From assembly GCA_963691655.1 (NCBI GenBank), contig OY829326.1, positions 88,467,235 through 88,531,234 on the forward strand: DNA of 64,000 nucleotides, written 5' to 3'. Position 1 is the first letter of the stretch, and every line of letters starts with the position of its first letter. This document shows, one piece after another, positions 2,086-56,857 of this stretch. Position numbers and translations under genes: made by a program. Source of the DNA: Toxonevra muliebris (lineage: Eukaryota; Arthropoda; Insecta; Diptera; Pallopteridae). The notes beneath the pieces are model-generated. The model had not been told where the DNA came from and made no database searches. It saw only the letters and a program-made list of their open reading frames with translations.

Positions 2086-2091
2086 TTTATT
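2086..2091 (-). terminator. Polyadenylation signal of small-peptide gene copy 1
   Basis: AATAAA on the minus strand, 81 bp beyond the stop codon. The other three copies have the same signal at a similar distance. Confidence 0.45.
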
Positions 2092-2171
2092 GTTTAATTT
2101 TTTTGGAAACATTATTACAAAAATGAAATATACTCCAATAAAATTTCAATTTAATAGTAACGGTTGGTGTG

Positions 2172-2322
2172 TTACCCAATACAATTACAATCATCAGCGC
2201 AAGCCGTAAAAACGAGGTAACAGGTAGCCATGATGGCTCCAATCTAAAAAACATAAATTTAAGATTTAGTATTCAGAATGCTAGCAATTTTTACTTACAG
2301 TAACTTTTAGTGCAGTTTCCAT
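2172..2322 (-). CDS. Tiny secreted-peptide gene, copy 1 (two exons)
   Basis: Predicted 31-residue precursor. Exon 1 is 2322-2299 (METALKVT). The 55-bp intron 2298-2244 starts GTAAGT and ends TTTTTTAG. Exon 2 is 2243-2172 (IGAIMATCYLVFTACA, then DDCNCIG and TAA). The first 24 residues are hydrophobic with small residues at the end, like a signal peptide cleaved after A-C-A, leaving a seven-residue peptide with two cysteines. A TATA box (TATAAAAA, 2384-2377) lies about 55 bp upstream and AATAAA (2091-2086) about 80 bp after the stop. Exon structure, spacing and leader match three other minus-strand copies near 10.0, 51.7 and 56.5 kb, which is the main evidence that the gene is real. The very short tail may mean this copy is truncated. 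Function unknown; a secreted peptide is an inference from the leader. Confidence 0.55.
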
Positions 2323-2376
2323 TTTAAACCGGCTAGAAACTGAATTCTTAATGATTTCAAAATGAAAATACTCGTA

Positions 2377-2390
2377 TTTTTATATTTAAA
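2377..2390 (-). promoter_or_regulatory. TATA box of small-peptide gene copy 1
   Basis: TATAAAAA directly preceded by a TTTAAA-type sequence, about 55-65 bp before the ATG. The motif and spacing are kept in the other copies. A TTTTCATT stretch just downstream is a possible initiator. Confidence 0.5.
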
Positions 2391-2548
2391 TTTAACTTAA
2401 AGTTTTTCGTCATAACTAATAAAGTTTGTTACGGTTGCTATTATAAAGCAAACAATATCGGCTTGATTATTAAAAGAATTTCTCAAGCTATAAAACATTT
2501 ATCGATTAGTTCCAGAAACTAGAGCACTTGACATTTTAAGTATTGCAC

Positions 2549-2568
2549 GTGTACTTGAGAGCTCGGAT
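2549..2568 (-). promoter_or_regulatory. Conserved upstream block, copy 1
   Basis: A block containing GTACTTGAGAGCTCGGAT about 230 bp before the ATG. It aligns with GTACTCGAAAGTCGGGAT at 10314-10331 and GTACTCGAGAGTCTGGAT at 56840-56857, at nearly the same distance from their genes. It may be a cis-element or simply residual duplicate similarity. Confidence 0.3.
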
Positions 2569-2629
2569 AGCTTACTGACATTAGCTATTTAGTAACAGCG
2601 ATATCAATGTAGTATGAGGTGATAAGTTT

Positions 2630-2880
2630 ATTCAAAATAATGCAAATCAAAGGATTAGTTTATACTTGAGAGATAGATTTTAGAGGGCGATTTTAAAGAG
2701 CTCTTTATCATTGAGGTTTCATCTGGAGTACCTCAAGGTAGTCATTATGGTCTAATTTTATTCCTTATTTAAATTAATGATCTTCCATCTGTAATCGGTC
2801 ACTCAAAAATCTTATTGTATGCTGATTATGTAAAACTATTTCACATTATATACTGAAGAAGAGTAATGTTAAATGTAATA
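2630..2880 (+). pseudogene. Non-LTR reverse transcriptase fragment (CR1/Jockey type)
   Basis: Plus-strand reading gives SSGVPQGSHYG, then an INDLPSV block and LLYADYVKLF. These are the conserved GVPQGS and FADD blocks of non-LTR reverse transcriptases. The catalytic ADD is changed to ADY and stops interrupt the frame, so it is a dead scrap. It lies just upstream of small-peptide gene copy 1 and marks where the duplicated gene flank is cut off. Confidence 0.7.
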
Positions 2881-3395
2881 TTCTTGACCAAATTGCTAAA
2901 CGATGACATACATTTTGAGTTTCTGCTGTCAAAGGTCGAAATGCACAGAAAAGTATGGAGGATATTTCACCATAAGTAGCTGACCCCCTACCTGCGCTCT
3001 ACAATCTACCTGCGTGCAACAATCGCTAAATTCAAAAAAATAGATTAGACCTTAGTGCAAGTCTTGCATCATTGCAAATGCAAAATACGTTTATTGTTTT
3101 AAATCATGCAAGTATTTTCATACTATGTAAAATGTAAGAATAACTGTAACGTAAGTGTAAGATAACTATAACGTCCAGTTCCCCTCTCGCTCACACTTCT
3201 GCGCGGCATGACTGTGCTACTCTAAACAACAAAGAGAAGAGAGAAAAGAAGAAGAGAGGGAGAAATTAAAATACGAGCGGAGTTTGTTTGTTTATGTTTC
3301 GATCAATTTACTCACACATATATGTACATTTGAAAACAAAATGTGTGTGTACATTTATTATTTGTTGGTGTTAAACGTGTGGAGATCGACTATAC

Positions 3396-4072
3396 CAGTG
3401 CTGTCGTTGTCACTTCAATTGAAGTTTTTCACTTCACTTTCAAGACACTTAGTCACTTCCTCTTTCATAAAAACACTTCGGTTTCCCAGTTTCAATGAAA
3501 GACTAAAATCAATAAGAAAAAATCAAAATATGCTCATCTCTGTAATATGCTCCGACTGTAGCCAGATCGGTGTGTTTGAATTTATATCCCCTATAAAAAG
3601 TAAAATGATACCATTTAGCATCCTTTAGTATATTCTGAGACCTTTTGTGTTTATTTAAATACCAATGTAGCAACACGGATGACGCACTGTCATATAATTT
3701 ATTAGAATTTTGTTGAAAATTAAGAGGTAGACGATTTAGAAGGCGAGTAGAGGATTTTATTTCTAAATGATTTTATGCAAAAAACGCAACAGTTTCGAAG
3801 AATTCTCCCATTTTGTTTTTGGCTTGAAAAATTCCCTAAAACAAATTATGTACCCACATTCAAAAAGTTTTGTCGGAGCCTTATCGTGTCTGCCACACGG
3901 TAACGCTCAACCAAAAGTTTTTTTTTTCGCAAACTAAGCACATAAAACCAGATAAATTGTGAAAAAATGTCAATTTCTTATTACGCATCAAAAAACACTT
4001 CACTTTTTTAAAAATCACTTAGATTTTTTAAGAATTTTCACTTCACAAAAAAATTTCAAAACGACATCCCTG
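3396..4072. mobile_element. hAT-type MITE inside Rpt-A copy 1
   Basis: Starts CAGTGCTGTCGTT and ends AACGACATCCCTG, imperfect inverted termini. It is flanked by an exact 8-bp direct repeat GACTATAC (3388-3395 and 4073-4080). Rpt-A copy 2 has the empty site with a single GACTATAC. The 8-bp duplication and CAG terminus fit the hAT superfamily. The interior carries many CACTT/AAGTG motifs and no coding region. Confidence 0.85.
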
Positions 4073-4657
4073 GACTATACCATATAAGCAGAGAAGTCGC
4101 CGTAGCAAAGTTTGGTAGGTTTTGTATTCCGTTAGTTAGACTGGATTAAAATTAAATATTTTTTAAAATATAAAAACAATACAAAATGATAAGTAGTAAG
4201 GAATCAAGGTTTCAATAAAGGTATAAACAAAATGTAGTGATAATGATAGCAAACCACGACATTATAAAAATTTTGCTTTGTACATTAACCTTAGAAAGGC
4301 AATGCATTTTTTAACTATGTAAAAGCAAAAATGTTAAACAGAGAAAATCAAACTTATTTATTATAAAATCACTTATTTACTTCAATAAAAACACATTGTT
4401 TCTTATTTTTATTAAACAAGTTAAGACAACTCTGCTCGGTGCTTTTAAAAAGTAGTGGGGTGACTGGTCACCCCTGTTGCCTTTCTAAGGTAAAATGCGG
4501 AAAGCACTTACCGTCGCCTGAGAATTGATTTGTCGGATGTGTGTACAAATTCATATACCTATATGTCAAATCAATTCTCAGGCGACGTTATGTAAAATTT
4601 TCACATCTAATAAAATTTCAAATCGACAGGAAGAAAAACTTAAAGCGCGGAAAAAAA

Positions 4658-4837
4658 ATGCAATTGCGTTTATGCGAGCATATCATACCCAATGCTTTGA
4701 GTAAAAGAAAAATAATGCAACTACAAAATATCAGCCCTATTTACAATTTGGTGCAAATGCAAAATATTTCTGCTATCACAACAACAAATATTTGCATTTG
4801 CAAATTTTTATTCCATATCGCAAGATATGGAATATAA
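4658..4837 (+). other. Small open frame conserved inside Rpt-A (copy 1)
   Basis: A 59-codon frame starting MQLRLCEHIIPNALSKRK. The homologous part of Rpt-A copy 2 (8468-8686) is also open, starts MQLQLRIYEHIVPDAFSKR, and differs by an in-frame 6-bp indel. The frames then diverge near their ends. No domain recognised. It may be a captured exon or chance. A degenerate, non-open relative of the 3' part appears near 54480-54600. Confidence 0.25.
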
Positions 4838-5564
4838 ATTGCAAGACCGTTTGCAATTTATAGTGAATTGGGCTATTTTATATAAAAGATAATAATATCT
4901 AATAAATTTTTAAGTTTGTAAAAGAATTGTTTATCTATATATATTATTATATATTTGATTATAGATTAAATCCAGATATATGGCTATACGTACCTACGTG
5001 AGCTTATGAATATGGCATTCAGTTGGCTTAACTGTTTACAGATCAAATATCTTGCGTGCCTTGCACGCATCCATTGTTTTTTTCTTCACTTTAGTGCCTG
5101 CGATAACTACACTCATACTGATTGTAACTTATTTTTGTTTGTTTTGTTTTAGATCTGTGGAAAATCCAAAACATGTCCCACCAGTAAGATCCGTTTTTTT
5201 TGAAGAGGGCAACTGTAATACCAATTTTAGTTTACTTAAAATTATAATATTTTTTTTTAACATTTTTGTATATTGTTAAAGTAATAAAATATACTTTTCA
5301 TTTAAAAACAAAAGTCTTAAAAACTCGTCAAATTCAAAGGCGCTAGGCCAGAAGGTCCCCTTAAGTATGTCTTATTATAGGAGAGCCACTCTAACCTAAT
5401 CTAGGGTTTTGCGACTATCCCAAAAATCCCATTTTCCCCAATAAAACGCTCTTTTTATTCCATTAAAAACCAAAATAAAAATGCCGGAAAATCCCATTTA
5501 CAAATATTAATTAAAAAATGTGTTTTCAATAGCAATTCATAAAAATTTAAATAAACAAAATGTT

Positions 5565-5845
5565 AATATGCCCCGTTTTTAAAACGGACTGAAAGCAATG
5601 GAAGTACAAAATAATTTCTTCTAGCCCCATAGAGATTTATAGCCTCATACAGATTCCTAACCCCATACAGATTGTCCTGAAAATTTGTATTTGTGAATTT
5701 TAGTAGGTATTGATTTGATTTTAAACAAAAAACGTGGGTCGCATACGATAGAAAATTGATTGATGTATAGTTCACCTAAGCCTCTTGCAATTTTATCTCT
5801 ACCATATGCGTCCCACGTTCCCTTTGGAATACCAAAATCAGTCGA
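5565..5845 (-). repeat. Dispersed repeat Rpt-C, copy 1
   Basis: Minus-strand copy of a repeat seen at 24455-24612 and 58700-58925 (both plus). Landmarks are ATGCGTCCCACGTT, a TTTAAATCA block and two or three degenerate copies of CTGTATGGGGTTAGGA. Noncoding, boundaries approximate. Confidence 0.65.
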
Positions 5846-5849
5846 TTGC

Positions 5850-7570
5850 CGGCAGAATGTTCTAGGAAAATCCAATCAAATATTTGTTTTTATGCGCCAA
5901 AACTTATTTCAGTATTTTCAAACGATTCCATTTTTAATAGATTTTGTATTTTTCTGCACAAAAATTTTATATTTATATCGCAAACAAAAGAAAGAACAAT
6001 TGAAAAAAATAAACTGCAAAGTTGCATTGTTTTAAGTTGTTGTTGCAAAGTTGTATTTTGTATAAGAGCCAACAAATTTTTAAACTATTGTGAAACTTTA
6101 CAGCATTACACCTTGTGAATCACCTAAATATCTCACAAAATGATCCATAAAAAATTTTAGCCATGATTTTCGAATTCAGCGTACAGTGTTTCGAGTAGAA
6201 CAAGCTAGCTGTACAAAATTGTTTTTGTACTTTTTTATATTCTTTGGGTCGAGATAAAAAATTGTATTGGAGCAAGGGCTGCAAATGCACCCTTGAACTG
6301 CAATGGGTTAATTAATGTTGTTATTTACTTTGCTAACTTAAAAACGCCATAATTTTGAAAGTTCTAAAGCTAGGGAACCAAGAAAACATATTAAATAAAA
6401 CAATGTTTATAACATTGGGTTACAAAAAAACAAAGTTACAGGTGATGCAATTGCAAAAATTACATTTTTCTTGCAATTTTTGATTTTCCGGTGGACTTTA
6501 CTCCCAAAAAAGTAAAAGAATTGCTTTTTTAGGATGCAGTTTTTTTTCGTAATATATTTTCTGCAAATTTTCCGTACAATGTTTCTACCATCGACAAACA
6601 GGTAAATCAGATAAATATTTACATTTTATGTATTTTAAGACCTCAATATTGAAAATAGTGACAGGGAAATTTTTCTGATACATTTCCTTTGCATACAAAG
6701 TTTGTATAAAATTAAAAAAAATAATAATAGCACTTACAATTAAACTCAACAAAAATATTTATTAATTTTTCCTTCAAAACAAAGCACATTTCTGGTGCTA
6801 AATTACAACTCAAAAATAAACATAGGAAAGAAATTAAACTCTGCTCGTTAGAAGTTCAGGAATATTCACTTTACTTTTCAACTGATTTTAGTTCTTTTCT
6901 AAAAATCGCTCCTTTAACCTTACGCTAATGCCCCACATTTTGTTAATATTCTCTGAAAACTTTGCAATTTTTTTTTTTTGCAGCTCTCTTAGGGAATTTT
7001 CATTTGCATCGAAAAGATCGACTTTGTAGCGAATAAATCGAAAAAGGTTTGAATTTTTTGTAATAGAATATTCACATTCTAGAAAATTGAAAAAAAAATT
7101 GTTTAACTTTGCCCAATAACAAAAATTTAACTATAAGTAACTATAATCTGGCTAGACCGACTATAACTTTCTTATTAGTTTCCAATAAGTTTAGCCATAA
7201 CTCTCTTTCTTTTACAGACCCTACTGTAAATAAATGCATTAAATAAAGTAAACATTAAAAACAAAGAAACAAACAGAGAAACAAGAGTTTTAGAGTATTT
7301 AAGGATGTAGTCTGGTGTTCGAGTTTCAACAAATCGATTACTTTTTTAATGTATTTCAAGTACAATATACCATATTGAGATTATATTGTAAAAATTTCAG
7401 ACCAAAATATTAACAAAGTTATAGCACATAATCTGGAGCGCCTGATAAATGCGCACTGCAAGTTGTTGAAACTTTAAAAGGGTTTTTCTAGAAAATATTG
7501 GTTGCTGAGCCAATATAAGCTTAATTTTGATTGTTGTGAGTTTTTCTGAATTTTTACTGCGCTATCTCGC
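5850..7570. other. AT-rich intergenic DNA, nothing recognised
   Basis: No element termini, splice-supported exon or coding similarity was seen. The few open frames overlap in opposite directions and lack motifs. Confidence 0.5.
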
Positions 7571-8893
7571 TTTTTGATGTGTAAACATTTTAGCTCACGG
7601 TATGGGCAAAATTTCAAATGTGTAAAATGTAACAATAACTGTATCGTAAGATGTAAGATAACTGTAACGTCCAGTTCCCGTCTCGCTCACACTACTGCGC
7701 GGCATGACTGTGCTACTCTAAACAACAAAGAGAAGAGAGAAGAGAAGAAGAGAGGGAGAAATTAAAATACGAGCGGAGTTTGTTTATGTTTCGATCAATT
7801 TACTCACACATATATGTACATACGAAAACAAAATGTGTGTGTACATTTATTAGTGGCAGAATTATTTGTTGGTGTTAAACGTGTGGAGATCGACTATACC
7901 ATACAAGCAGAGAAATCGCCGTAGCAAACACAAGCGTTTGATAGGTTTTGAATTCGGTTAGTTAGATTGGGTTAAAATTACATATTTTTTAAAATATAAA
8001 AACAATACAAAATTATAATAATAAAGAATCTAGGTTTCAATATATGTATAAACCAATTGTAGTAATAATGATAGCAAACCACGGCATTATAAAAATTTTG
8101 CTTTGTACATTAACCTTAGAAAGGCAACACTTTTTTATCTATGTAAATAGCAAAAATGTTAAACAGAAAAAATCAAACTTATTTATTATAAAATCACTTA
8201 TTTACTTCAAAGTAAATACATTGATTATTATTTTTATTAAATGCAGTTAAGGCAAATCTCTTTGCGGTGCTTTTAAAAAGTAGTGGAGTGACTGGTCACC
8301 ACTGTTGCTTTTCTAAGGTTAAATAAGGAAAGCATTTATCGTTGCCTGAGAATTGATTTTGCGTATGTGTGTACAAATTCATATACCTATACGACGTTAT
8401 GTAAAATTTTCAAATCTAATAAAATTTCAAATCGACAAGAAAAAAAACTTAAAGCGCGGAAAAAAAGATGCAATTGCAGTTGCGTATATACGAGCATATC
8501 GTGCCCGATGCATTCAGTAAAAGAAAAATGATTCAACTACAACATATCAGCCCTATTCACGATTTGGTGCAAATGCAAGATATTTCTGTTATCACAACAA
8601 CAACCACATACGATATGGAACAAAAATTTGCATTTGCATTGATGAAAGGCCATTTGCAATTTATAGTGAATTGGGATATTACATAAATGTATATAAAAGA
8701 TAATGATATCTAATAAATTTTTAAGTTTATAAAAGAATTCTTTTAATTTGAATTATTTACCTAAGCATATAGATTATACATCAAATCCCTATAAATGACT
8801 ATACATATGTGAGCTTATGTATATGGCATTCAGTTGGTTTAACTGTTTACACATCAAATTTCTTGCGTGCCTTGCACGCATCCATTGTTTTTT
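7571..8893 (+). repeat. Dispersed repeat Rpt-A, copy 2 (most complete)
   Basis: The fullest copy and the one without the MITE, so it provides the empty target site (single GACTATAC). It begins with GATGTGTAAACATTTTAGC and near its end has AACTGTTTACACATC, suggesting short inverted ends. It ends like copy 1 with GCGTGCCTTGCACGCATC. A GTGACTGGTCACC palindrome occurs in the middle of both plus-strand copies. Confidence 0.75.
8468..8686 (+). other. Small open frame conserved inside Rpt-A (copy 2)
   Basis: A 72-codon frame starting MQLQLRIYEHIVPDAFSKR, homologous to the frame at 4658. The copies share LSKRK/FSKRK, QLQ.ISPI and LVQMQ.IS blocks. No domain or signal peptide is visible. Coding status is unproven; it may be an old captured exon. 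Confidence 0.25.
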
Positions 8894-9830
8894 TTTATTC
8901 CATTTTTCTTTAAGTTCATCGTTAACTTGTTTTCTTTTGGCATGTTACAAAGAACGTTTTAAGATATGTTATCCGCATTTTGTTATCTTGGTGGCTTGGT
9001 AGCATGACTTGGCTAATTAACTTGAATTCCTTGATGGCTTCCAAAAGGAATCTGGATGAAGTCATCAGGTTTGCCAATTGTTGTATATATTTGTTTTTGT
9101 TGTTGTTGCTGCATAGTCGCTGCAGTTTTTTAATTTAATTTTGATGTATCTAACAATATATTACCTTTGGGCGACACTCATGGTTACTTAAAGTATTTTT
9201 ATACCCGTTTTCCTATTAGTTAGTTTGTGCACAAATCCAGAAAATTTAATGCTAAACTTTCACACCACGCGGCGCTGCTTACTGCATTGATATCAGCAAT
9301 TACAGATCAGACAACTGATCGGATTAACACTTCGAATTTGAGTGGAAATAAAAGCAAAAATTTTGCGCGGGAATATTTAGTTATTTTTGAGGCGAATTTA
9401 ATTAATTGTTCACCGAAAATTCAGTAAATATTTTATATTTTTTATTATAGTGTGCAGGTTAACGATCATGGATAGAATTTAAACGCGTCGTTAAACCATC
9501 GCAGATCACTTTGAAGACGAATTACAGTTTAATATGTAGAATTTCTGTCTGAAACGACCTTGAAATGGAACAGAAAAATTACACACCTTTCCGTAGTTAG
9601 TCGGTTGCCGAATGACTTATGGACTGACCTGATAATTATTTAATATCAAAATCTATAGGTTTTTTTCCCTAAAAATGCCAAATTGAAGGTTTTTTTTGGT
9701 ACATATAAAGGAAAATAGCTTTCGCAATCTGGCAACAGTGATTTTAAATAATTAATCTGAAATGTGAACTGCCAAATTTGGAAGAAATTTGTAAAAATAT
9801 TTTCCAAATTAAATTTTGTTTTGTTAATTA

Positions 9831-9840
9831 TTTATTTATT
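9831..9840 (-). terminator. Polyadenylation signals of small-peptide gene copy 2
   Basis: Two overlapping AATAAA hexamers on the minus strand, about 75-85 bp after the stop codon, matching the position in the other copies. Confidence 0.45.
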
Positions 9841-9914
9841 TTTTTCCTTTTTGGGAAATATATTACAAAATTGTAAGATATTCCAATGAAAATCATATTT
9901 AAGGAAATCTTCAG

Positions 9915-10100
9915 TTAGTGGGGGAAAAAAGGTGGGAACACGGGCGGACGAGTTGTGTAAGCGTAAGTTGTTGCGAGGTAACAAATTACCATGATGGCTC
10001 CAATCTAAAAATAATAAACATTCAATATATCAAATATTAATTTTTGGTATTCAAAATGTAAAGAACTTTTACTTACAGCAAATTTTAGTGCAGTTTCCAT
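9915..10100 (-). CDS. Tiny proline-rich secreted-peptide gene, copy 2 (two exons)
   Basis: Predicted 37-residue precursor, the best preserved member. Exon 1 is 10100-10077 (METALKFA). The 72-bp intron 10076-10005 starts GTAAGT and ends TTTTTAG. Exon 2 is 10004-9915 and ends in TAA. Its first part (IGAIMVICYLATTYA) completes a hydrophobic leader with an A-X-A-like end. The remainder is YTTRPPVFPPFFPH, 14 residues with five prolines. Proline-rich short secreted peptides in insects are often antimicrobial, but no known family is recognised and that role is only an inference. A TATA box is at 10172-10155, AATAAA is 75-85 bp past the stop, and a conserved block lies about 220 bp upstream. The copies at 51.7 and 56.5 kb share promoter, splice sites and 3' end, which supports transcription. 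The start is the only ATG that gives the shared leader. Confidence 0.65.
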
Positions 10101-10154
10101 TTTAAATCGACGGTTAACTGAATTCTTTATGGTCCCACAATGAAAATACTCACA

Positions 10155-10172
10155 TTTTTATACTTAAATATA
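10155..10172 (-). promoter_or_regulatory. TATA box region of small-peptide gene copy 2
   Basis: TATATTTAAG followed directly by TATAAAAA, 55-72 bp before the ATG. A TTTTCATTG initiator-like sequence sits about 31 bp downstream of the first motif, the usual TATA-to-start spacing. The same arrangement occurs at copy 3. Confidence 0.55.
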
Positions 10173-10311
10173 ACCAAAGATTTAAACTAATAAATTTTAT
10201 TACAATTGTTAGTAACTATTAAAGAATTTATCACGCTATTAAAAAATTTTTAACATTTATTGATTAGCTACACAAACAATGTGAGTGTCACGGATGTTTT
10301 TGGTATTACCC

Positions 10312-10331
10312 GGGTACTCGAAAGTCGGGAT
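10312..10331 (-). promoter_or_regulatory. Conserved upstream block, copy 2
   Basis: Contains GGGTACTCGAAAGTCGGGAT, 212-231 bp before the ATG. It aligns with blocks upstream of copies 1 and 4. A candidate cis-element. Confidence 0.3.
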
Positions 10332-11216: not shown

Positions 11217-11300
11217 AGCGGTTCTCAACTGTTTTCGTCCTGCGCCCCCCTTTTTGAATTAGTGCCAAGCCCGCGCCTCCCCCACTTTGATTTTTACACA
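11217..11300. mobile_element. hAT-like element terminus
   Basis: CAGCGGTTCTCAAC followed by a C-rich CTGCGCCCCCC stretch. CAG-GGTTCTCAA termini are typical of hAT elements related to the Charlie group. It interrupts the duplicated block directly after TAATCATAATC, where the paralogous copy near 57365 continues uninterrupted. The opposite end was not found, so the element's extent is unknown. Confidence 0.5.
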
Positions 11301-11790: not shown

Positions 11791-11796
11791 CTTTTC

Positions 11797-12310: not shown

Positions 12311-12529
12311 GTTTCGTGTGAGTGAAAATTTATCCTCGCTAAAGAAGTTTCACTTCGATAATACGTACCGCAATTTTCTTCGAGGTTTTGAGATCAGTAA
12401 AAGCAATAGAAATAAAAAAAAAATTATTTTAAGTAAAAAACAAAACTAATCTTCATCATAAAGACAAAAACCTAAATAAATAATAATAAATTTTAGACAA
12501 GTGTTAACCTAGCAGACCCAAAATGGAAA

Positions 12530-14150: not shown

Positions 14151-14154
14151 ACAA

Positions 14155-36031: not shown

Positions 36032-36035
36032 TTAA

Positions 36036-39774: not shown

Positions 39775-41049
39775 TTGGGAACATAAACATAAAACGTAAT
39801 TCTTTAATTCTAAGTCGTCGTTTTCCTTTAAGCATAATCTTCTGGCGTTTGGTATTCGTATTTATTTTCACAATTGCAGACATAACTTAGTTTGATTTTC
39901 GAATTTAGAATTTAAATTTTATAATTTCAGTCCGTGTTTGCTATAAGAAACAAAAAGACAGAAAGACCTAGAAAGTATACCAAAAAACATTATTAACAAA
40001 ATTTTTACTAATTACAGTGACTGGGACTGGCACAATTACTGGAACTTTCACCTCGTTTGTAACTACATTTTTTTTTATTAATACAAAGATACCATTATTT
40101 GGAGAGGGAATCATTAGAACCGGGTCCCTACAACTTTCGAGAGCTAGCGAGTGTTTCGAGTTACTCGACGTTCATTTTGATGGATAAACAAGTCTCAGCC
40201 CACTTTTGAACAGAAAAATTGGTTTCATGTTCCAATGAACGACTATGCAGGTGTTACTATGTTTTTTTTTAGCGAATAAGTAAAAGAAGCTGTTGTGCGG
40301 GCATTTGTACAACTTGCTAGATTTGATCGGGTAATTTAAGCTTATTTTTTCCTTTATTCAATAGTTATTAGGAATACCGAAAAATTTATATGCGTGAATT
40401 ATTCCTATTTGATAGATCTATAAATTTTGTGGAGACAGTTTTTATGTAAAATCAAAAATGTCTGAGATATAAAGAATCAAATATGGATTTTGTGCACAAA
40501 AACCGTTTTTTCCAAATTTTGGAGCTCTTGGGGCACCACTTCCCCTTATCCAATTGACCTGAAATTTTATACAGATCATTTTTTGAGTAAAACAAACCGA
40601 TCGAGGGGTGCCGCGGAAAATTTTCTGACTTTCGAAAATTAATGGCACTCTAGTGTACACAAAACAATAGTAACACCGCTCGCCGTTTAATTTATGTAGT
40701 GTCCGGCCGAAACCGACTTTTTCGGCCGAAACCAAAACCGAATTTCGGCCAAAACCGAATAATCGTAATGATACTATTTTTGGTGATGTATTGTTATTAA
40801 ACTTATTATTAGAGCATAATTTTGAAAGAAATATACTTTATTAATGTTTATAACAAAAATAATTTAAGATATCGGAGCATTTTTAAATTTTCTGAGACGT
40901 TACAAAAGAGTTCATTTTTGTGCTGCAATTTTATTTAGCGCATCCCATTTAAAATAAATATTTAGTACAAAATTTTCAATTATTCGTGGCTGTTCTTTTG
41001 AGACACATTTGAAATAATAAACCTTAATTACTAAAGCGAATTTTTAAGC

Positions 41050-41938
41050 ACCCATGGGTTGGAAAAAAAAGTTATAATGAGACAGAAAGGAAGATCATAT
41101 GGCAGTTGTTTCAACAGGATCCAAATATCAGCAAAATTGCTCGAAATCTTAACTGTTCTCGGAAAAAAGTGCAAAACGCTTTAAAATATTATAAAGCAAA
41201 TAGAACTTTTGCTGATAAGACACGATACAGAAGCCGAAAGACTTCAAAAAAGGAAGACTTTTTATTAGTTCGGCAAGCCTTGAAAAATCCTTTTGCCACT
41301 TCCCCTATATATATATGCTCTTATCTCAGAATACAGTTTTTCAGCAGGACAACGCGCCTTGCCATAAGTCCAGGTCAGTTATGATGTGGTTTGAGGAGCA
41401 AAATATTTCCGTAATGGATTGGCTTCCTCAAAGCCCAGACTTAAATCCTATCGAAAACTTATGGGCAATCATTAAAAGATGTGTTATGACGCTAAAGCCA
41501 AGGACTCTTGATGATTTGTGGAGCACCATTAACCAAGAATGGGATAAAATACCAAAGGAGGTGTGCAAGGACCTTGTGTCCTCCATGGGTAGACGATGTG
41601 CTGCTGTAATTTTCCAAAAAGGGTTTCCTACAAAATATTAGCTAAGTTTTAAGAACTTTTTGATTTTTTTTTTTACTTTTAACACATTATACTTATTATT
41701 TTTCTTTTTTCGTTTCAAACGATTTTCATTAGGGTTTTTGGAGTAAGATTACCTAGACGATAATTTTGTTCAGTTTTTTAATTTATTTTTTTTCAAAATA
41801 TATAAAATTAAATACTTAATGAATTATTTACTTTAATTAATAAAAATTTTGCAGAGGTTTTTCTTAAAATTTTCGAGTTTTTCCTTAATTATTTCGCAAC
41901 ATAGGTATTGAACGAGGGGTGTGCTAATTAGCTCGCCA
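41050..41938 (+). mobile_element. Tc1-like remnant inside hAT element D
   Basis: The right end reads GGTGTGCTAATTAGCTCGCC up to CAGAGCTG, followed by TA, a Tc1-type terminus. No matching left terminus was found, so the left end is lost. It carries the internally deleted transposase described next. Confidence 0.75.
41079..41641 (+). pseudogene. Internally deleted Tc1-like transposase
   Basis: 41079-41310 encodes the N-terminal helix-turn-helix (LFQQDPNISKIARNLNCSR, then RSRKTSKKED as the second DNA-binding part). A deletion and frame change near 41310-41330 remove the second helix-turn-helix and the first catalytic Asp. 41315-41641 encodes the rest: FQQDNAPCHKS with the second Asp, then MDWLPQSPDLNPIENLW with the catalytic Glu. 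It ends near RRCAAVIFQKGFPTKY and a TAG stop, typical of Tc1. The DD34E spacing of the remaining pair is kept, but without the first Asp the protein cannot be active. No internal insertion; the remaining sequence is well preserved and so relatively recent. Confidence 0.88.
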
Positions 41939-46604: not shown

Positions 46605-46739
46605 AATGCACATATTTTGGCTTTTTTCTTAAATATAATAAAAAATGTAAAAGAAATAATGAATAAATTTCTAAATTCTTTTTATAAAAATATTTCATTT
46701 AATTACATTGTACTATTTTTTATTTTAATTTTTTTTAAT

Positions 46740-48300: not shown

Positions 48301-49845
48301 ATTTTCATGTCAGCCGAGTTTAATAGCTTTGAATAGAAACATTAGAGAAACTACAGCATTGTTTCAAACGACTTCATCTTAAAATCAAAGATCTTTCTGA
48401 AAACGATATATGATTCTAAAAATTGTTTAAAATGTTTAAAAACAATATCTTATATTTGCCCTGTTTTTTTAAAACCATTTGTTTAAGGGTTGCTGAGTTA
48501 CTTTCGGTATTTCAAGTAAATTTCGTTGAAATTCTTGTAAAATTCAGAATTGATTCTATGGATATTATTTCTGTAAATAAAAATAAGTTTCTTCTTTAGA
48601 AGTTGTGTGCGATATTAAAAAAACCTATTATTTCTCATATTTTTCATATTGCTTCAGAGATTGTGCGAATTTACTTTTAAAAAATTTTATTCAGAATGTT
48701 GTTACACAATTTCCTGGATGTGCCCAAATAAATTTCTCTAAGAAACAAAAAAATGGTTAAGATGGGGAAGACTATACCAGCTTTGAACGAAGTTAATAGT
48801 TGCGTTACGAAGTTAATAGTTAGTTACTTATGTTTCAACTTCAAGGCGTTTGAGGGTCACCGAGAAGGTGTCCGATGGAGCTGAAGTTTTAAGTTTTCGC
48901 TTTTAAGAAAGAACAACTTCAACCAAATTAATTTGTCGTTATCGCGTATTTTTCGGAAAAAAGAACTATTCAATTGTAGTCCAGGACGCAGCTCAAGGAT
49001 GGCATTGATCAATTGCACAATGCAAGCCAAAAAAAAAATTTATTTGAAAAATAAAAAGGATATTAATTTCTAACTTTATGATTTGTTGAAATATTTAAAA
49101 ATTCGTGTCTCCTGAACTATTTGAGTCACCACCTAGAATTAAAAAGCCAAAGAAAAGGTAAGTTAGTCTTCTTTGAGGAACACAAAATTTTAAATTTTAT
49201 TTTTCGGGACTATGGAACGAATTTTGCAATTAAATTTTAATGAATTAATTAAAAAAAATTAATAATTTTAAAAATTAACAAAATTAAATAAAATAATTGT
49301 TTGTAGCGCGTCTTAGCTTGCCAACGACATGCAGGTCGGTAGTATAATGACTGAGTTATGAACGATTCTGTAAATCGATATTGTCAATTTCGGAGATTTG
49401 GTTCGCTCTGGCAACTCCGGTGAAAACCTTACCAGAATTTTTTTGTATACTTTTTCGTTGGGTTTGGTCTAAAATAAAACCATAGGCGAAATTTGAGCCA
49501 AATCTGAAAGAGTGCGGTCGATTGCTCGGTACGTTCAATTTGGAATGGCTGAAAATATATTTAATGTAAAATTAATTCAATAAATTTCAAAGTATTTTAA
49601 AAAGTTAATTGATTGAGTGCGTTAGTTTCTATGTTCTGTGTTGTTTCGCCTGATAACGTCGATTTTTCATTTGTTTCGTATGTGTTTCGGATTTGTTTCA
49701 TGTGCTTAATAGCATGAAGTATGTAAAAACTCGGTACCAAGCAGGTGGTCCTGAGTCGGCACGTTTTTTTTTTGTTACTTTTGTTTATTATTGTGTATTA
49801 TTTTATTTTGTTGTGTTTATTAAAAAAATAAAATAAAATAGAAAG
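48301..49845. other. AT-rich DNA, nothing recognised
   Basis: No coding motif, element terminus or tandem array was identified. Confidence 0.4.
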
Positions 49846-49849
49846 TAAT

Positions 49850-50205
49850 GAATAAAAGTAATAAGAACATGATTTCAATGACTTTTTATTGAAACAACAT
49901 TGCAGAAAATATTCCCTAAATTGAGGATTTTTTCCCCTTAAAATATTTTTTCTCAAACTGAGGAAAATTTTACTTAATTTATATAACATTTCTCAGATTG
50001 AAATAAAATATTATTCATTTGAAAAACACAATTTCTTTTAAAGAAATTTTTCTCTTAAACAAAGAAAAAATATTTCCTCAATTCAAAGAAGTTTTGTATA
50101 TCCAAATGAGGAAACCAGTTCTATGCCGCCAAATCATTCCCATTTTTCATCAATTTGGTAGCCGTTTTTCTTCAAACGAGATAAGTATTTCTCTCGATGT
50201 GAGCC
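49850..50205 (+). repeat. Dispersed repeat Rpt-D, copy 1
   Basis: Shared with 54780-55217: CATTTGAAAAACACAATTTC, AAAAAATATTTCCTCAATTC, AAATGAGGAAACC, CCAAATCATTCCCATTTT and a closing AAGTATTTCTCT. The 137-codon frame that covers this copy is broken in the other copy. Confidence 0.75.
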
Positions 50206-50992
50206 ATATCTCTTTCGTTTTTGGCTGGACACATCAATTCATTTTTCTCATCTATACATTTATTAGTGTAACTACAATTTTATTCCAGAAAGAAAGAAAT
50301 TTCTTAATAGCCCCTGAAGACCTAACTTTTCCAAATTCAGGTTCATATTGTGGGAGAACTAAATGTGATGGAGTATATCTGAGTATGTTGCTTTTATCAC
50401 CGACCGTAAATTACTATAAAACAAAAAGCTGAAATTTTGTTGCACGGTATTTTTTTATTTGATTAGAATAAAAATGTTTTAAAAGAAAAAATGGTTTTTG
50501 CATTGATGTTAATAAAATGCTATAGTTTCATAAATCATGACTTTGCATACACATATGTTTGCTTAAAATATTTGTATTGAAATTTTCTATAAGATAAGTG
50601 GGCTAACTTTTTATTACCCATACATATAATTGTTTGAATTGTCAAAGTTAAAATTTATTTGAAAAATAACAAAAAAATTAAATTTTTTGTACCTATTTTG
50701 GATCAATACAGCTATATTACAGTTATTATTGACAAGTATTATGCCTGGCTCTCATCTAAAATATGCAAATATCTAAAATTCATTGGCTGAAAATTAAAGT
50801 TTTTACAAGCATTTATGTGAAGTATGTGCTCTCAACAGTGCACTTTTTTGAATTTTGCCATTTACATGGAAAATTGGGGCCAATCGAAAAAAATCATTAG
50901 GATATTCGGATTCTACCATTCGTTGTGGTGAAAGTTTTCGTAAATTTGTAGAGTAGTGTAATTAAAGGTGACCTTGGCCTTTCCCTAGCTTG
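50206..50992. other. AT-rich DNA, nothing recognised
   Basis: No gene or repeat was identified between Rpt-D and the next duplicated gene unit. Confidence 0.4.
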
Positions 50993-51575
50993 AATGCCAA
51001 AGGAATGTGGACGAAATCATCAGGTTTGCCAATTGTTATATCTATTTGTTTTTGTTGTTGCTGCTGCATGGCCGCTGCAGTTTTTTAATTTAATTTTGAT
51101 GTATCTAACAATTTATTACCTATGGGCAACACTCATGGTTACTTAAAGTATTTTTATACCCGTTTTCCTATTAGTTAGTTTGTGCACAAATCCAGAATAT
51201 TTAATGCTAAACTTTCACACCACGCGGCGCTGGCTACTGCATTGATATCAGCAATGACAGATCAGACAACTGATCCGATTAACACTTCGAATTTGAGTAG
51301 AAATAATCGCACATCATTATGAAGACGAGCAGAAAAATTACACAGCTTTTCGCGAGTTAGACGGTTGCTGAATGACTCATGGAGTGACCTGATATATATT
51401 TAATATCAAAATCTATAGGTTTTTTTTTCTAAAAATGCTAAAACTGAAGGTTTTTTTTGGTACATATAAAGGGAAATAGTTTTCGCAATCTGGCAACAGT
51501 GATTTTAAATAATTGATCTCAAATTTGAACTGCCAAATTTGGAAGAAATTTGTAAAAAGATTTTCCAAATCAAAT

Positions 51576-51581
51576 TTTATT
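51576..51581 (-). terminator. Polyadenylation signal of small-peptide gene copy 3
   Basis: AATAAA on the minus strand, about 90 bp after the stop codon. Confidence 0.45.
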
Positions 51582-51669
51582 TTGTAAATTATTTATATTT
51601 TTTTTCTTTTTCGGGAAATATTAATACAAAATTGTAAGATATGTAATGGAAACCATATTTAAGGAAATC

Positions 51670-51853
51670 CTTATTCGTATCGATCCCGGATAAAACGCGG
51701 TACACCAGTGCAAGCGTAAGTTGTTGCGATGTAACAAATTGCCATGATGGCTCCAATCTAAAAATAATAAACATTCAATATAATAAATATTGATTTTTGG
51801 TATTCAAAATGTTAATAACTTTTACTTACAGCAAATTTTTGTGTAGTTTCCAT
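51670..51853 (-). CDS. Tiny secreted-peptide gene, copy 3 (two exons)
   Basis: Predicted 36-residue precursor. Exon 1 is 51853-51830 (METTQKFA). The 73-bp intron 51829-51757 starts GTAAGT and ends TTTTTAG. Exon 2 is 51756-51670 and ends in TAA: IGAIMAICYIATTYA, then CTGVPRFIRDRYE. The leader differs from copy 2 at only four positions, while the 13-residue tail is completely different: charged, with PRF and RDR instead of prolines. TATA motifs at 51925-51908 and AATAAA at 51581-51576 are placed as in copy 2. A Tc1 terminus at 52034 has cut off sequence more than about 180 bp upstream of the ATG, so regulation may differ. The frame is intact. Function unknown. Confidence 0.6.
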
Positions 51854-51907
51854 TTTAAATCGACTGTTGACTGAATTCTTTATGGTCCCACAATGAAAAT
51901 ACTCGCA

Positions 51908-51925
51908 TTTTTATACTTAAATATA
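51908..51925 (-). promoter_or_regulatory. TATA box region of small-peptide gene copy 3
   Basis: TATATTTAAG followed by TATAAAAA, identical to copy 2, with TTTTCATTG about 31 bp downstream of the first motif. Confidence 0.55.
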
Positions 51926-52033
51926 ACCAAAGATTTAAACTAATAAATTTTATTACAATTGTTAGTAACTATTAAAAGAATTTATCACGCTATTAAAAAT
52001 TTTTTAACATTTATTGATTAGCTACACAAACAA

Positions 52034-52440
52034 TATACACTGCCGTGCAAAAGTTTGGAATCACCTCTGAAAATTTAGTTATTTCATATTTATTTCTATA
52101 TTTCATAGCTTTAATTTATTTATGATTTGTATATATGACATAAAATCAACGGTTTTGGAACTATCTATGTGTAGATATTAAATATTTTTGTAGAAAAAAA
52201 AACGATAAAATGTGAAAATATCTCTTGAGGGTTTTTTCATTGAAATATCCACCTTGCACTTTTATGATTGCTTGGCAAATTTTGGGCATTCTTTCCACTA
52301 GTTTTCGAAGTGTGCCAACTTCAAGATTTTCCAAAGGTCTGTTTGAGATTATTCCACATCGTTTCGTGGCTCGAAATAGTCATCTTCCTAACCTGGCGAT
52401 TCAGCTCAAAAAATATTTTGTTTTTATTTGCATATTTTTG
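52034..52440 (-). mobile_element. Tc1-like element 3' end with transposase C-terminus
   Basis: Starts TACACTGCCGTGCAAAAGTT, a typical Tc1 terminus. Minus-strand reading gives RMPKICQAIIKVQGGYFN near 52230-52300, the end of Tc1 transposases (MP.RCQAVI.A.GG). The rest is lost and the opposite terminus was not found. Confidence 0.75.
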
Positions 52441-54775
52441 GTAAAAAAAAAACTAAAAATATTGCATGTGATTTAACAAACCAAGGACGGAACCAATTCA
52501 TTTTAAAATATGAAATAAGTTTATAAAAAGCAACAAAAATATAAAATTAGCATAAAAAGTTTAACATAAATCGTAGTTAAGTAAATATGTAAATGATTAT
52601 GAGATCAATCCTTATTTATTGTTTATTGGCGTAAACAATAACAACTTTTTTGAAGTTTTCAAATACAAAACATTCCCGATCGGGTCTTAAAAATGTTTCT
52701 ATAAAGAAAATGATAGCTCTAAAACAACACTCGGACGATAAGAGCAAAAAATTCATTTATAGAACAATTTTCTTCATTAAATTCCAAATTTACATACCTT
52801 CCCTGGATATCAGTAGCCTCATTTATGGAAACCCGTAAGGAATGGTTTTTAAGGCGAACTTGATTTCTTTTAATAAACATGATGTTTCATGAAAAATGAT
52901 TTTATTAATACATGTTCTCAAAAACTTCTTAATTGTGAATTGTAAGATACAATGGAATATCTGCTGAAATAAAAGCTTGGCATAAATCCAATCAAAATAT
53001 TTTAAGCCCTGACCCTGCAGAGGTAGTAATCAAAGGCTATATTGTTTTTTTTGAGTGCCGATCATTCTTTATGTTTCTGCCTTTTCAAATGCTAGTCAAC
53101 TGGAAATTTTTTTTTGCAGCTTACTAAAAAGTTATCAAAATTATTAAAAATAGCATTTATTGTAAAATATAGTCATATCCGTCTCATTCAAATAATGTAA
53201 CAAGAAACATTATTTGAATAGGCACACTATTCATTATCTTCCTTATTTAAAACTATACGATCGTCACGTAATCCAATTCTGGCATACATTCGTTACAGCA
53301 TGAGATCATTGGCAATGCACTTCGCACTTCCACTTTGATGAGGGTAACATATATCATATGTATGCTATTTTTTATATAAACACACATTATATGCTATCGC
53401 TATATCTTTTTGGAAACCTAAACCTTAAGTTATAGTTCTATTGTTATGTAGACACATATGTATGTAAATGTGTATGCATACAATTGTTGATTAAGGAAAT
53501 TAAGAATAAGCAAAACTAGGATAAGAATTTTATATTTAAGATTGATATTTTCAAATAAAGATTCAGTGATGAACAAGAGTTTCATGGCTCAACATCTAAA
53601 TTAAGAAACAAGAGTTTCATGATTTAATGTATGAATGTCATTTTAAAGGAAATTTCATGATTCGTAAAGATAACTTGACTATTTCATTTTTGAGATACTC
53701 AGTAAAAATATGCATTTGCATGGAATTCCTTTCCCTATTCATAAGCATATAGCATCCTAGTCGATGCGTGGTCAGGTATATCGCAATTGACTCATTGACA
53801 AAAATTATAGATACGTTCATAATAACCGTGTCTCATTACACGAATTGTATAGAAAAATAGCGATTGGTTCCATTAAATGCAAAGACTTTCATAACGTATT
53901 CAAAAGCGTAAAACTTTTGTTTCCAGCTCAATCATTTGAAACTGAAACTAATTTGAAATTATTGAAAACCGTCGGGGTAATAAATGTGAAACTGTGTAAT
54001 AAATTTGAAAACCGTGTTAAAGCGAAAACGTGTAAATTGAAGGACAGGTGTATATTACCAAACCCGGTCTTTTTTTTTTTTATATGCTTAGCTGCTGATT
54101 TGCGCTTTAATTTATCAGCGATCTCACCTTATGGTTTACCAAATTGGCAGTTAAGTTATAAGAGGCACTCCCAGGTTATTACAATTTAAGGCGTCTATGT
54201 CGCGTGTTTCTACAATTTAATACCAAGATGAATAATTGTTACAAAATATTTGAAATTTTCCAGGAAAAACAGCAAAATATATGCCAAATAAGCCAACGAG
54301 CTCAAAATTTGCAAAACTAGTAAAATGTGTAAAATAAGCAAACACCATTTAAAGTTAAATCTATTTTTTCATTACAAAAAAAAAAAGAAAAGAAATTAGA
54401 GAAAAATTAAAAAGGTATGCAACCCACATTTCAAGATGTCAATTAATTGTTTGCAAAATTATGAAATTATATATTTTATAAAATATTTTTGCTATCACAA
54501 GAAATACATGCGATATGCAATAAAAATTGGCATTTGCAATGATGCAAGACCATTAGCAATTTATCGCAAAAATTGTTGATATAATTTATGAAAAAAATAT
54601 ATATATATTATGAAAAAAAATATATTGAAAAGATATAAATTTCAATAAACTTCATTTTATAATTTTTTGATGGCTATAAGGATCTTTCGATAATTTCAAG
54701 GCGACGACGCCTGTAGTGGATGTAAAAATACGTATGAATGTAAACCTTAATACTTATTAAAAATAAAATAATAAA
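52441..54775. other. AT-rich intergenic DNA
   Basis: No gene recognised. Small structures are a 14-bp-arm hairpin (ATTCAAATAATGT at 53187 against ACATTATTTGAAT), a short direct repeat AACAAGAGTTTCATG (53570, 53606), and a degenerate relative of the Rpt-A 3' part near 54480-54600. The 114-codon frame at 53845-54189 has no motif and is probably chance. Confidence 0.4.
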
Positions 54776-54779
54776 TGAA

Positions 54780-55217
54780 CACAAGTTAAAAAATATGATT
54801 TCTATGCCTTTTATTAAAACAACATTGTAGAAAATATTCCATAAATTGAGGATTTTTTTTCTGAAAAGGTAGTAAATTGACTTCAATTTATGGAAAATTA
54901 TTCCTCAAATTGAGGAAAATTTTACCTAAATTATATACAATTTCTATTGAAATAAAATATTATTCATTTGAAAAACGTAATTTCTGCAAATTGAAGACTT
55001 ATTTCTTTAATTTATAGACTTATTTCTTTAATTTATAGAAAACTTCCTTCTTTCAAAGAAAATTTTCTCTAAAATAAAGAAAAAAATATTTCCTCAATTC
55101 AAAGGAATTTTGTATATCTAAATGAGGAAACCGTTTCTATGGCGCCAAATCATTCCCATTTTACCTCAATTTGAAAGCCATTTTCTTCAAACGAGGTAAG
55201 TATTTCTCTGGGTGTAC
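54780..55217 (+). repeat. Dispersed repeat Rpt-D, copy 2
   Basis: Same landmarks as 49850-50205, with a short internal duplication (GACTTATTTCTTTAATTTATA twice in a row near 55005-55045, differing slightly). Noncoding. Confidence 0.7.
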
Positions 55218-55294
55218 TTATAGCTGCTGTGATATTTCATACTTTCTATAAAATAAGTTTCGTGTCGCGCAGTGAGTATAATTTTTACTTTTTT

Positions 55295-55745
55295 TTTATG
55301 GGTTTTAAGCATGGATGGCCAAAAGATTTCGTATTCTAATAGAATTAGTGCTTCAGGTAAGATACCGTGTGATAGAATATCTGCCGGATTAAATTCAATT
55401 GGAATGCGGCGCCTTTGTAAGAGTGCATCGCCATTTGCAACGAACTTTTGCCGGTTGCATGATTCCTCAATTTAATACGATGGTTGAGTCAGTCCAATGG
55501 ATGAGAATTTACAATTAACAAAACTGAAAATGGTAATTATTTGTATGTTTAGTTGCGCCACAATAACAGCAGTGCATACTTGAATTATACAAGCAACATT
55601 TGGGGCTACCCGAGTTTTAGCACCCAACAGACTTACGCTGAGAACTTTATCGCCATGTAAAATACTTCGAACGTATATGTCAGAAAAATCAAGCAGTTCA
55701 TAGTTTATCTACAGTACAAAGAATTTTCAATCCATTTGGAAGTCA
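55295..55745 (-). pseudogene. BEL/Pao-type retrotransposon pol fragment
   Basis: Minus-strand reading gives SVSLLGAKTRVAP (compare LV.AKTKVAP at the RT/RNase H junction), then HWTDSTIVLN, then QKFVANGDALLQRRR and EFNPADILSHGILPEAL. WTDS.IVL, FVAN and NPAD..SRG in this order are the RNase H-side signature of BEL/Pao pol. Stops and frame changes show it is dead. No long terminal repeats were found nearby. Confidence 0.75.
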
Positions 55746-55817
55746 TTTAAGACTGTAGTTGATTCGGAAAACTAATTCAGCTGCGGGATAAAAACTTACG
55801 ATAAAAAATTTTAAAGC

Positions 55818-55884
55818 GTGCCGTGACTTGAACCCGGGCACCTCTGCGTAGCAGCCCAACACACTAACCACTAAGGTACGGCAA
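55818..55884 (-). other. tRNA-like pseudogene, Ser-like
   Basis: On the minus strand, TGCCGT and ACGGCA could form an acceptor stem. Box A is TACCTTAGTGG, box B GGTTCAAGTCA, and the middle GTTGGGCTGCTACG resembles the anticodon arm of tRNA-Ser(GCU). The anticodon stem is broken, each box has a mismatch, and it is too short for a serine tRNA. A tRNA pseudogene or SINE head. Confidence 0.5.
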
Positions 55885-55974
55885 TCACTCAGATTAACGG
55901 TTTGAAAACAGGAGCCTCTTGCTCAAGGGCAAAGACGAAAATCTGATGACAGATATCCAATTCTCGTAGCTGCT

Positions 55975-56265
55975 TAGAGTCGATGACGACAATAATTTCA
56001 CTCGACTAAAGACCAATAAGGCAGCACGTGCAAATTGTGTGCCTGGATAGTTGCTTAAGACGGGAGGCTAAGGGCTTACTCAATTTGCGCCAACTATCGC
56101 ATAAAAGGTTCTATCAAGCGTACTATGTGAAAGACTGAGCCCAACAAAATTGGACCTTATCAGTGCAGCTTCAGGCATGGTAAATCCACCATCGACCAGA
56201 TATTCAAACTTCACCAAATCCTGGAAAAGACCCGAGTAAACGTTACACGCGCAATCTTTTCGTCG
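55975..56265 (+). pseudogene. RTE-type non-LTR reverse transcriptase fragment
   Basis: Plus strand, several frames: FTRLKTNKAARANCVPG (compare RLKNNKAAGADGLP), then a deletion, then a KVLSSVLCERL block (compare YKVLS..LCERLKP), then CSFRHGKSTIDQIFKLHQIL (compare CGFRPGKSTIDQIF.LRQIL). This order is the finger region of RTE-clade elements. Truncated right after it. Confidence 0.75.
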
Positions 56266-56387
56266 TTTGTAGGGCCATCAAGCGAATTACAATAATTGTT
56301 GAGTTGTGGCATTGATTCGTAAACAGTAATTTAAAATCTATTCTATGGAACAAATGAAATAAATAATTTTTTAATCCAAAACTAAAT

Positions 56388-56393
56388 TTTATT
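56388..56393 (-). terminator. Polyadenylation signal of small-peptide gene copy 4
   Basis: AATAAA on the minus strand, about 70 bp after the stop codon. Confidence 0.45.
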
Positions 56394-56460
56394 TGATTAT
56401 TAATTTTTTTTTATGGAAATATTATTACAAAATTGTAAGATATTCCAATGAAAATCACTT

Positions 56461-56621
56461 TTAACCAATTATATAGGGCGGAACTGAACGGTTTTCCATT
56501 GCGATGTAGCAAATTACCACGATGGCTCCAATCTAAAAATAATAAACATTCAAAATTTGGTATTTTGGTATTCAAAATGTAAACAACTTTTACTTACAGC
56601 AATTTTTAGTGCAGTTCTCAT
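56461..56621 (-). CDS. Tiny secreted-peptide gene, copy 4 (two exons)
   Basis: Predicted 31-residue product. Exon 1 is 56621-56598 (MRTALKIA). The 65-bp intron 56597-56533 starts GTAAGT and ends TTTTTAG. Exon 2 is 56532-56461 (IGAIVVICYIA, then MENRSVPPYIIG and TAA). Compared with copies 2 and 3 it lacks the four codons TTYA at the end of the leader, so the usual cleavage site is missing and a cut after CYIA must be assumed. The second residue is Arg instead of Glu. The TATA box is weaker (TATAGAAA), and AATAAA follows 70 bp after the stop. The conserved upstream block is present. The frame and splice sites are intact, but the changed leader and TATA box suggest a divergent or decaying copy. 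Confidence 0.5.
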
Positions 56622-56679
56622 TTTAAATAGACTGTTAACTGAATTCTTTCTTTATGGTCTCACAATGAAAATACTCGCA

Positions 56680-56687
56680 TTTCTATA
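56680..56687 (-). promoter_or_regulatory. Weak TATA box of small-peptide gene copy 4
   Basis: TATAGAAA in place of TATAAAAA; the adjoining upstream motif is also changed (CACATTCAAG instead of TATATTTAAG). Confidence 0.4.
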
Positions 56688-56837
56688 CTTGAATGTGACC
56701 AAAGATTTAAACCAATAAATTTTTTTATAATTGTTAGTAACTATTAAAAGAATTTAAACCGCTATTAAAATTTTTTTAACATTTATTGATTAGCTACACA
56801 AACAATGTGAGTGTCATGAATGTTTTAGGTATTACCT

Positions 56838-56857
56838 GGGTACTCGAGAGTCTGGAT
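56838..56857 (-). promoter_or_regulatory. Conserved upstream block, copy 4
   Basis: GGGTACTCGAGAGTCTGGAT, 217-236 bp before the ATG, matching the blocks at copies 1 and 2. Confidence 0.3.

Follow-up and report, generated by a model that had tools for sequence, protein, structure and literature searches.

A probable family of secreted micropeptides in a fly: tiny two-exon genes with alignable leaders and tails that do not align

Introduction

The small secreted salivary gland protein (SSSGP) genes of the Hessian fly carry a conserved signal peptide, intron, promoter and untranslated regions (UTRs) around a mature region that is super-diversified. They occur as clustered local duplicates, encode proteins of 50-200 amino acids (aa) and are represented by salivary transcripts, and separate groups of them share no sequence similarity with one another (PMC2955719). 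The present work concerns four tiny genes, A to D, in a 64,000-nucleotide stretch of the 491-Mb genome of the fly Toxonevra muliebris (contig C1, 88467235-88531234; we call this whole stretch the window), together with their relatives elsewhere in that genome. The SSSGP families appear to be the nearest described parallel. Compared by description only, the fly family is like them in its conserved non-coding regions and signal, in a mature region that cannot be aligned and in its local clusters. Unlike them, it encodes precursors of only 31-49 aa and has looser clusters, spread over three contigs.

Three other systems invite comparison. Conotoxins combine a conserved signal with a hypervariable mature peptide and exist in many copies in surroundings rich in transposable elements; they also have a propeptide and disulfide structures, and their mature exons are cited as about three times as divergent as the flanks (PMC10561478). 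The genes described here share the first set of traits, but tails of 9-27 residues directly after the leader leave little room for a propeptide, and just five of 19 tails contain cysteine. Bomanins are clustered short secreted fly peptides whose mature part has a conserved motif of 16 residues that includes CxxC (PMC4411088), whereas in the present family the mature part is the variable part, and a CxxC motif was found in none of 22 gene models. Ibin and Mibin are short secreted fly peptides, infection-induced and encoded near diptericin and attacin loci, whose mature parts do not align, that of Mibin being proline-rich (PMC12882233). Our genes are likewise short, predicted to be secreted and unalignable in the mature part; the motifs KNHEEWXG (Ibin) and RPXTLPP(N/Q)RPXXP(N/D)F (Mibin), given in that paper, occur in 0 of the 22 models. 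Each of these three systems shares single traits with the family and fails a defining one. Mussel myticalins are reportedly multigenic linear peptides, discussed in terms of a conserved signal peptide and a hypervariable mature part, and are said to be called cationic antimicrobials in a title.

Our preferred reading, to which we assign a probability of about 0.78, is that the sequences represent a coding, secreted, diversifying micropeptide family of about 25 two-exon genes. The gene architecture, the clustering, the contrast between leader and tail and the coding signature of the tails can be read directly from the DNA.

Results

Four genes of one design in the window

The exact gene models place four two-exon genes on the minus strand at the positions where an earlier note had located them, save that gene C ends at 51671 and not at 51670.

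2172-2322, minus strand: gene A, exons 2299-2322 and 2172-2243, intron 2244-2298 (55 nt), 31 aa, METALKVT followed by IGAIMATCYLVFTACADDCNCIG
2172-2201, minus strand: hypervariable tail of A, including the stop codon
2379-2384, minus strand: TATAAA of A, at -62
2086-2091, minus strand: AATAAA of A
9915-10100, minus strand: gene B, exons 10077-10100 and 9915-10004, intron 10005-10076 (72 nt), 37 aa, METALKFA followed by IGAIMVICYLATTYAYTTRPPVFPPFFPH
9915-9962, minus strand: hypervariable tail of B, including the stop codon
10157-10162, minus strand: TATAAA of B, at -62
9835-9840, minus strand: AATAAA of B, with a second, overlapping AATAAA 4 nt further on
51671-51853, minus strand: gene C, exons 51830-51853 and 51671-51757, intron 51758-51829 (72 nt), 36 aa, METTQKFA followed by IGAIMAICYIATTYACTGVPRFIRDRYE
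51671-51715, minus strand: hypervariable tail of C, including the stop codon
51910-51915, minus strand: TATAAA of C, at -62
51576-51581, minus strand: AATAAA of C
56461-56621, minus strand: gene D, exons 56598-56621 and 56461-56532, intron 56533-56597 (65 nt), 31 aa, MRTALKIA followed by IGAIVVICYIAMENRSVPPYIIG
56461-56490, minus strand: hypervariable tail of D, including the stop codon
56682-56687, minus strand: TATAGA of D, a degenerate TATA box in the aligned position
56388-56393, minus strand: AATAAA of D

The shared architecture that had been claimed is largely borne out. All four models have an exon 1 of eight codons, the donor GTAAGT, the acceptor TTTTTAG and an intron of 55-72 nt; exon 2 starts with ATTGGAGCCAT, and an AATAAA lies 228-272 nt from the ATG in every case. 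The common TATA box holds for A, B and C, but D has TATAGA at the aligned place. The reading frames are intact, all four copies being among the 21 intact loci described below. A profile built from the four members matches just A-D within the window (E 2.5e-62 to 1.9e-73).

A family of 25 loci

What had been taken for a family of four occupies 25 loci genome-wide. Searches with the DNA of two different members returned the identical set, the counts from this search being lower bounds. Introns in the family measure 53-72 nt. A 21-nt pattern from exon 2 (at most 3 mismatches) matched 24 of the 25 loci and four other places, and a control pattern gave three matches. Intact loci number 21 and encode precursors of 31-49 aa, 19 of them distinct; 21 loci, 17 of them intact, lie beyond the window. 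Among the four broken loci, L023 has a frameshift in the leader, L027 has a deleted donor, exon 2 of L028 was not found and the copy at C4:15567057 has lost exon 1. The loci occupy five neighbourhoods.

C1 88.47-88.55 Mb: neighbourhood 1, 5 loci
C1 91.5-92.3 Mb: neighbourhood 2, 3 loci
C4 15.2-16.8 Mb: neighbourhood 3, 13 loci
C3 58.9 Mb: neighbourhood 4, 3 loci
C3 68.2 Mb: neighbourhood 5, 1 locus

The restriction to one strand holds inside the window but not genome-wide, where loci occur on both strands. A tree built from 22 gene models unites the C1 copies in one group and the C3 copies in another, while C4 needs two changes and has C3 nested inside it.

The earlier statement that no known family is recognised stands. 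At an E value of 1, Pfam gave no family for any of the 19 distinct precursors; NCBIfam gave no credible family for the same 19 (best E 0.051), and no credible match for the precursors was found in the PDB (E 3.5). A set of 5.8 billion proteins yielded six word-sharing candidates, none at E of 10 or less, with a query that had been lengthened by upstream codons, so that short relatives may have escaped this search. A search of phages with precursor B yielded no relative, and neither did one of viral contigs. Judged from the top-ranked literature matches, no publication was recognised as treating this family, and the available portion of a paper on tsetse salivary glands (PMC2853526) holds nothing that matches. 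To date the family has been seen in this genome alone.

A non-autonomous mobile element, or a non-coding repeat that merely resembles a gene, might also produce scattered copies, and remains of mobile elements do occur in the surroundings, in a scan that covered 86 of 189 frames in the window and 20 of 140 long frames around the clusters. We regard this explanation as very improbable: the loci occupy just five genomic neighbourhoods, the ends of the copies vary from pair to pair (the 5' end lies anywhere from -114 to -799 or beyond), and exons and tails carry a coding signature.

Variation is concentrated in the tails

Pairwise identities were calculated for 21 genes (210 pairs), namely 20 intact genes and the broken L023; L012 was dropped as a copy of L010, and the three broken loci that lack a gene model were excluded. 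Mean identity is 0.70 for the promoter, 0.82 for exon 1, 0.74 for the intron and 0.76 for the leader portion of exon 2, as against 0.37 for the tail; the 3'UTR, which was not anchored in these alignments, stands at 0.49. Within C4 alone (10 genes, 45 pairs) the leader reaches 0.90-0.93, the promoter 0.76 and the intron 0.82, and the tail remains at 0.40. In these 45 pairs the likeliest change point has its median and mode at nt 42 of exon 2, directly behind the ICTA codons, and it falls at nt 41-43 in 27 of them. The leaders are hydrophobic, and the tails are hydrophilic on average in 18 of 20 genes. Because the hydrophobic leader ends in a small residue in most copies, a signal peptidase cut would be expected at the break, and the loss of similarity therefore likely coincides with that cut. 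The earlier interpretation is thus supported in part. A constant leader joined to a diversified short product is also the pattern outside the window, where the other 21 loci lie, and with the break at the likely cut this favours secreted, fast-evolving peptides; the venom, antimicrobial, seminal or toxin-like roles suggested along with it are conjectures, and inside the window the leader shows no special conservation.

The window allows the tail to be compared with its immediate flanks, since B and C lie in homologous duplicated units of about 1.0-1.2 kb.

9044-10280, minus strand: duplicated unit containing B, homologous to 50999-52034
50999-52034, minus strand: duplicated unit containing C, homologous to 9044-10280

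Between B and C, the 320 alignment columns 5' of the tail contain 13 substitutions and one gap column, and the 344 columns on the 3' side, a comparison that skips some ten bases right behind the stop, contain 34 substitutions and nine gap columns. In the tail, 23 of 39 bases differ, and the worst other stretch of 39 columns has 9 mismatches. The tail is also the least similar region in the B-D, C-D and A-B comparisons; for A-C, intron identity is as low as tail identity. A is the older member and more distant, with an overall identity of about 0.69 to B or C. The claim that the ends do not align is upheld by a shuffling test, in which none of the six window pairs of tails retained significant similarity (smallest P 0.069 for nucleotides, in B-C, and 0.137 for protein).

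These contrasts might have arisen in another way. If the genes were old paralogues whose tails diverged long ago, and if gene conversion had homogenised their flanks, the tails need not be evolving fast. We consider this possible, though on the unlikely side, and it is the main rival for the pattern. Chen 2010 makes such an argument for the SSSGP genes, for which concerted evolution or gene conversion is proposed (PMC2955719). Several pairs are more alike in the 5' block than in the 3' flank (13/307 vs 30/229 in B-C), although the 3' stretch used here may in some pairs overrun the end of homology, and the three C3 pairs rank in one order on the 5' side and in another on the 3' side. On the other hand, the C1 quartet of B, C, D and L009 pairs identically on both sides, the copies span 3.9 Mb of C1 and 1.6 Mb of C4, and the duplicated units reach beyond the gene. 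Finally, L015 and L020 are equally diverged on the 5' and 3' sides (16/288 and 7/146), yet their tails have changed.

Tempo and source of tail change

In three pairs, namely B and C of the window (W_B/W_C), L022/L024 and L015/L020, promoter plus intron identity is 0.93-0.96 but the tails are only 0.35-0.57 identical. The ways in which tails differ can be followed in a few cases. Compared with L013, L010 has an inserted, shifted internal repeat in its tail that moves the stop; the tail of L016 contains a 15-nt inverted copy; and that of L021 has a direct match of 9 nt, one more than the control maximum. These cases, along with the differences in tail length among closely related copies, could be taken to indicate a dedicated mutational process (template switching, local duplication or hypermutation) that acts on the tail beyond what selection alone would achieve. 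Such a process seems to us quite improbable. The other 16 of the 19 tails examined contain no local template beyond the control range. Genome-wide, 24-nt pieces of the B and C tails match only themselves (at most 3 mismatches), so that no donor was found for either of the two, and L010/L012 and L011/L025 keep their tails. When the 19 tails were compared with the retrieved genome DNA, only family relatives exceeded the 31.5 bits reached by the top scorer among 95 shuffled tails, a maximum that is equalled by the inverted copy of L016.

In a stronger form, the tail would be a targeted diversification cassette, in which a germline process rewrites the mature peptide in single steps, for example by template switching that is linked to recombination or replication and kept within bounds by the conserved leader and 3'UTR. 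We hold this to be very improbable; if it were true, a population would carry a large, individual-specific repertoire of secreted micropeptides.

The tails look translated

Several properties suggest that the tails are coding. GC content is 0.23 in the promoter, 0.21 in the intron, 0.26 in the 3'UTR, 0.31 in exon 1, 0.40 in the leader and 0.46 in the tail, and within the tail it is 0.55, 0.42 and 0.37 at codon positions 1, 2 and 3. Proline makes up 12.8% of the residues in 19 tails, compared with 6.1% for shuffled nucleotides. In all 20 genes kept for the count, from which the broken L023 (stop after 3 codons) was left out, the first in-frame stop comes 9-27 codons past codon 22; in the other two frames it comes after 1-42 codons, and the spread in the +1 frame is far wider, with 8 of 20 genes below nine codons. 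All four measures, overall GC, GC by codon position, the share of proline and the distance to the stop, make the tails look like coding sequence. A test of tail openness was discarded as circular, since the first stop is what defines the end of a tail.

Short, multicopy, probably secreted products with proline-rich tails might be immune effectors of the fat body, antimicrobial or Bomanin/Ibin/Mibin-like and induced by Toll or Imd, and the mature parts of Mibin and Ibin are likewise unalignable (PMC12882233). The sequences make this doubtful. The net charge of the tails is only -3 to +3, near neutral, and the CxxC, Ibin and Mibin motifs are absent from the models, as noted above. The promoters were also scanned for the kappa-B motif. 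The strict form occurs in 0 of 21 promoters and the loose form in 2, in a scan that covered only 182 nt upstream of C, and downstream controls gave 1 and 7 of 21. Attacin genes are present at 10 places in the genome. Six of these served as a control, in which the loose motif was found in 4 (three of them tandem copies) and the strict motif in 1, one start being uncertain; the sample is small, and the strict motif has little discriminating power. No attacin match lies in the C1, C4 or C3 58.9-Mb clusters, and the nearest is about 1 Mb from the broken L028. Near-neutral tails, and perhaps also the scarcity of kappa-B-like sites in the promoters, speak mildly against an induced cationic antimicrobial.

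The promoter consensus of 21 copies contains, between about -60 and -260, two blocks that resemble each other but run in opposite orientation, CTAATCGAT and ATTGATTAG. They may be homeodomain-type sites.

Diversifying micropeptides as the preferred explanation

Under the reading of a coding, secreted and diversifying family, each gene would be transcribed from a similar TATA promoter and then spliced. The eight codons of exon 1 and the first 14 of exon 2 would form a signal peptide that exports the product, and a cut where similarity stops would release from most genes its own peptide of roughly 7-27 residues. Local duplication would supply copies and selection would rewrite the tails by substitutions, insertions and deletions, frame changes and, now and then, a local duplication or an inverted copy; expression and export would stay alike between copies through the promoter and leader that they share. 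Thus secretion, cleavage and recurrent diversifying selection on the tails after local duplication are what we infer. As to the role, our guess is that the products are peptides with an effector or signalling role, made by an exocrine tissue such as the male accessory or salivary gland, that face a fast-changing partner. Such a role is, again as a guess, the most likely one, and we prefer it to that of cationic antimicrobials induced in the fat body.

A number of observations weigh against this reading. In B-C the nonsynonymous divergence (pN) of the leader is 0.091 and the synonymous divergence (pS) is 0, compared with 0.027-0.071 for promoter, intron and 3'UTR. Window leaders are therefore no better conserved than intron and promoter, and it is the tail and not the leader that stands out as anomalous in the window. 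The claim of a kept leader core survives to the extent that the leader can be aligned across the family, but within the window its conservation does not exceed that of intron and promoter. Across C4 and C3 the variant codons of the leader comprise 11 synonymous and 19 nonsynonymous ones, as against an expected 44:154; purifying selection on the leader is weak there and is not seen in the window. For the tails, the ratio of nonsynonymous to synonymous substitution (dN/dS) is not computable, as they cannot be aligned. D has no clear small-X-small cleavage motif. The mean stop distance in the +1 frame, 19.1 codons, exceeds the 15.1 of the coding frame. Moreover, some copies have not diversified: L010 and L012 are 98.1% identical over 1637 bp, with 340 nt of the gene identical and the tail kept, and L011 and L025 (94% over 264 bp) encode one and the same protein and differ at 2 of 111 coding bases. 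Because these two pairs keep their tails, tail change is episodic.

The family shows, on a very small scale and in sharp form, a constant leader joined to a hypervariable product, in that the tail is unrecognisable between copies that are about 4% apart in their 5' half. As all but the tail can be aligned, it offers a clean test among positive selection, gene conversion of the flanks and a mutational hotspot, a question that is left open for the SSSGP genes of the Hessian fly. It also illustrates how intron-split genes of 31-49 codons can build a whole repertoire that is easily missed by protein searches.

Surroundings of the genes

The homology between C and B stops at a TA at about 52035 and is not resumed within the window; the sequence beside this TA may be a Tc1/mariner end, which it resembles. 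Just 3' of B and C, on the minus strand at 9029-9351 and 50984-51306, inspection by eye reveals another TATA-like box and what may be a short frame in two exons. This unit has no further copy of at least 100 nt in the window.

Two mobile-element remains lie in the window.

60604-63585, minus strand: non-LTR (long terminal repeat) retrotransposon with endonuclease and reverse transcriptase, interrupted by one in-frame stop
41028-41641, plus strand: remnant of a Tc1/mariner-like transposase, in two overlapping frames

Among the matches listed for the reverse transcriptase and transposase (120 of 132 and 120 of 1648), the few that are named come mostly from flies and mosquitoes and otherwise from some Lepidoptera, one beetle, one fish and bacterial bins, at 24-53% identity. 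Around the clusters, L045, L029, L031, L030 and L033 hold fragments of Helitron, copia, endonuclease and reverse-transcriptase sequences, and a malic enzyme gene (L042:2-1846) adjoins the C3 cluster.

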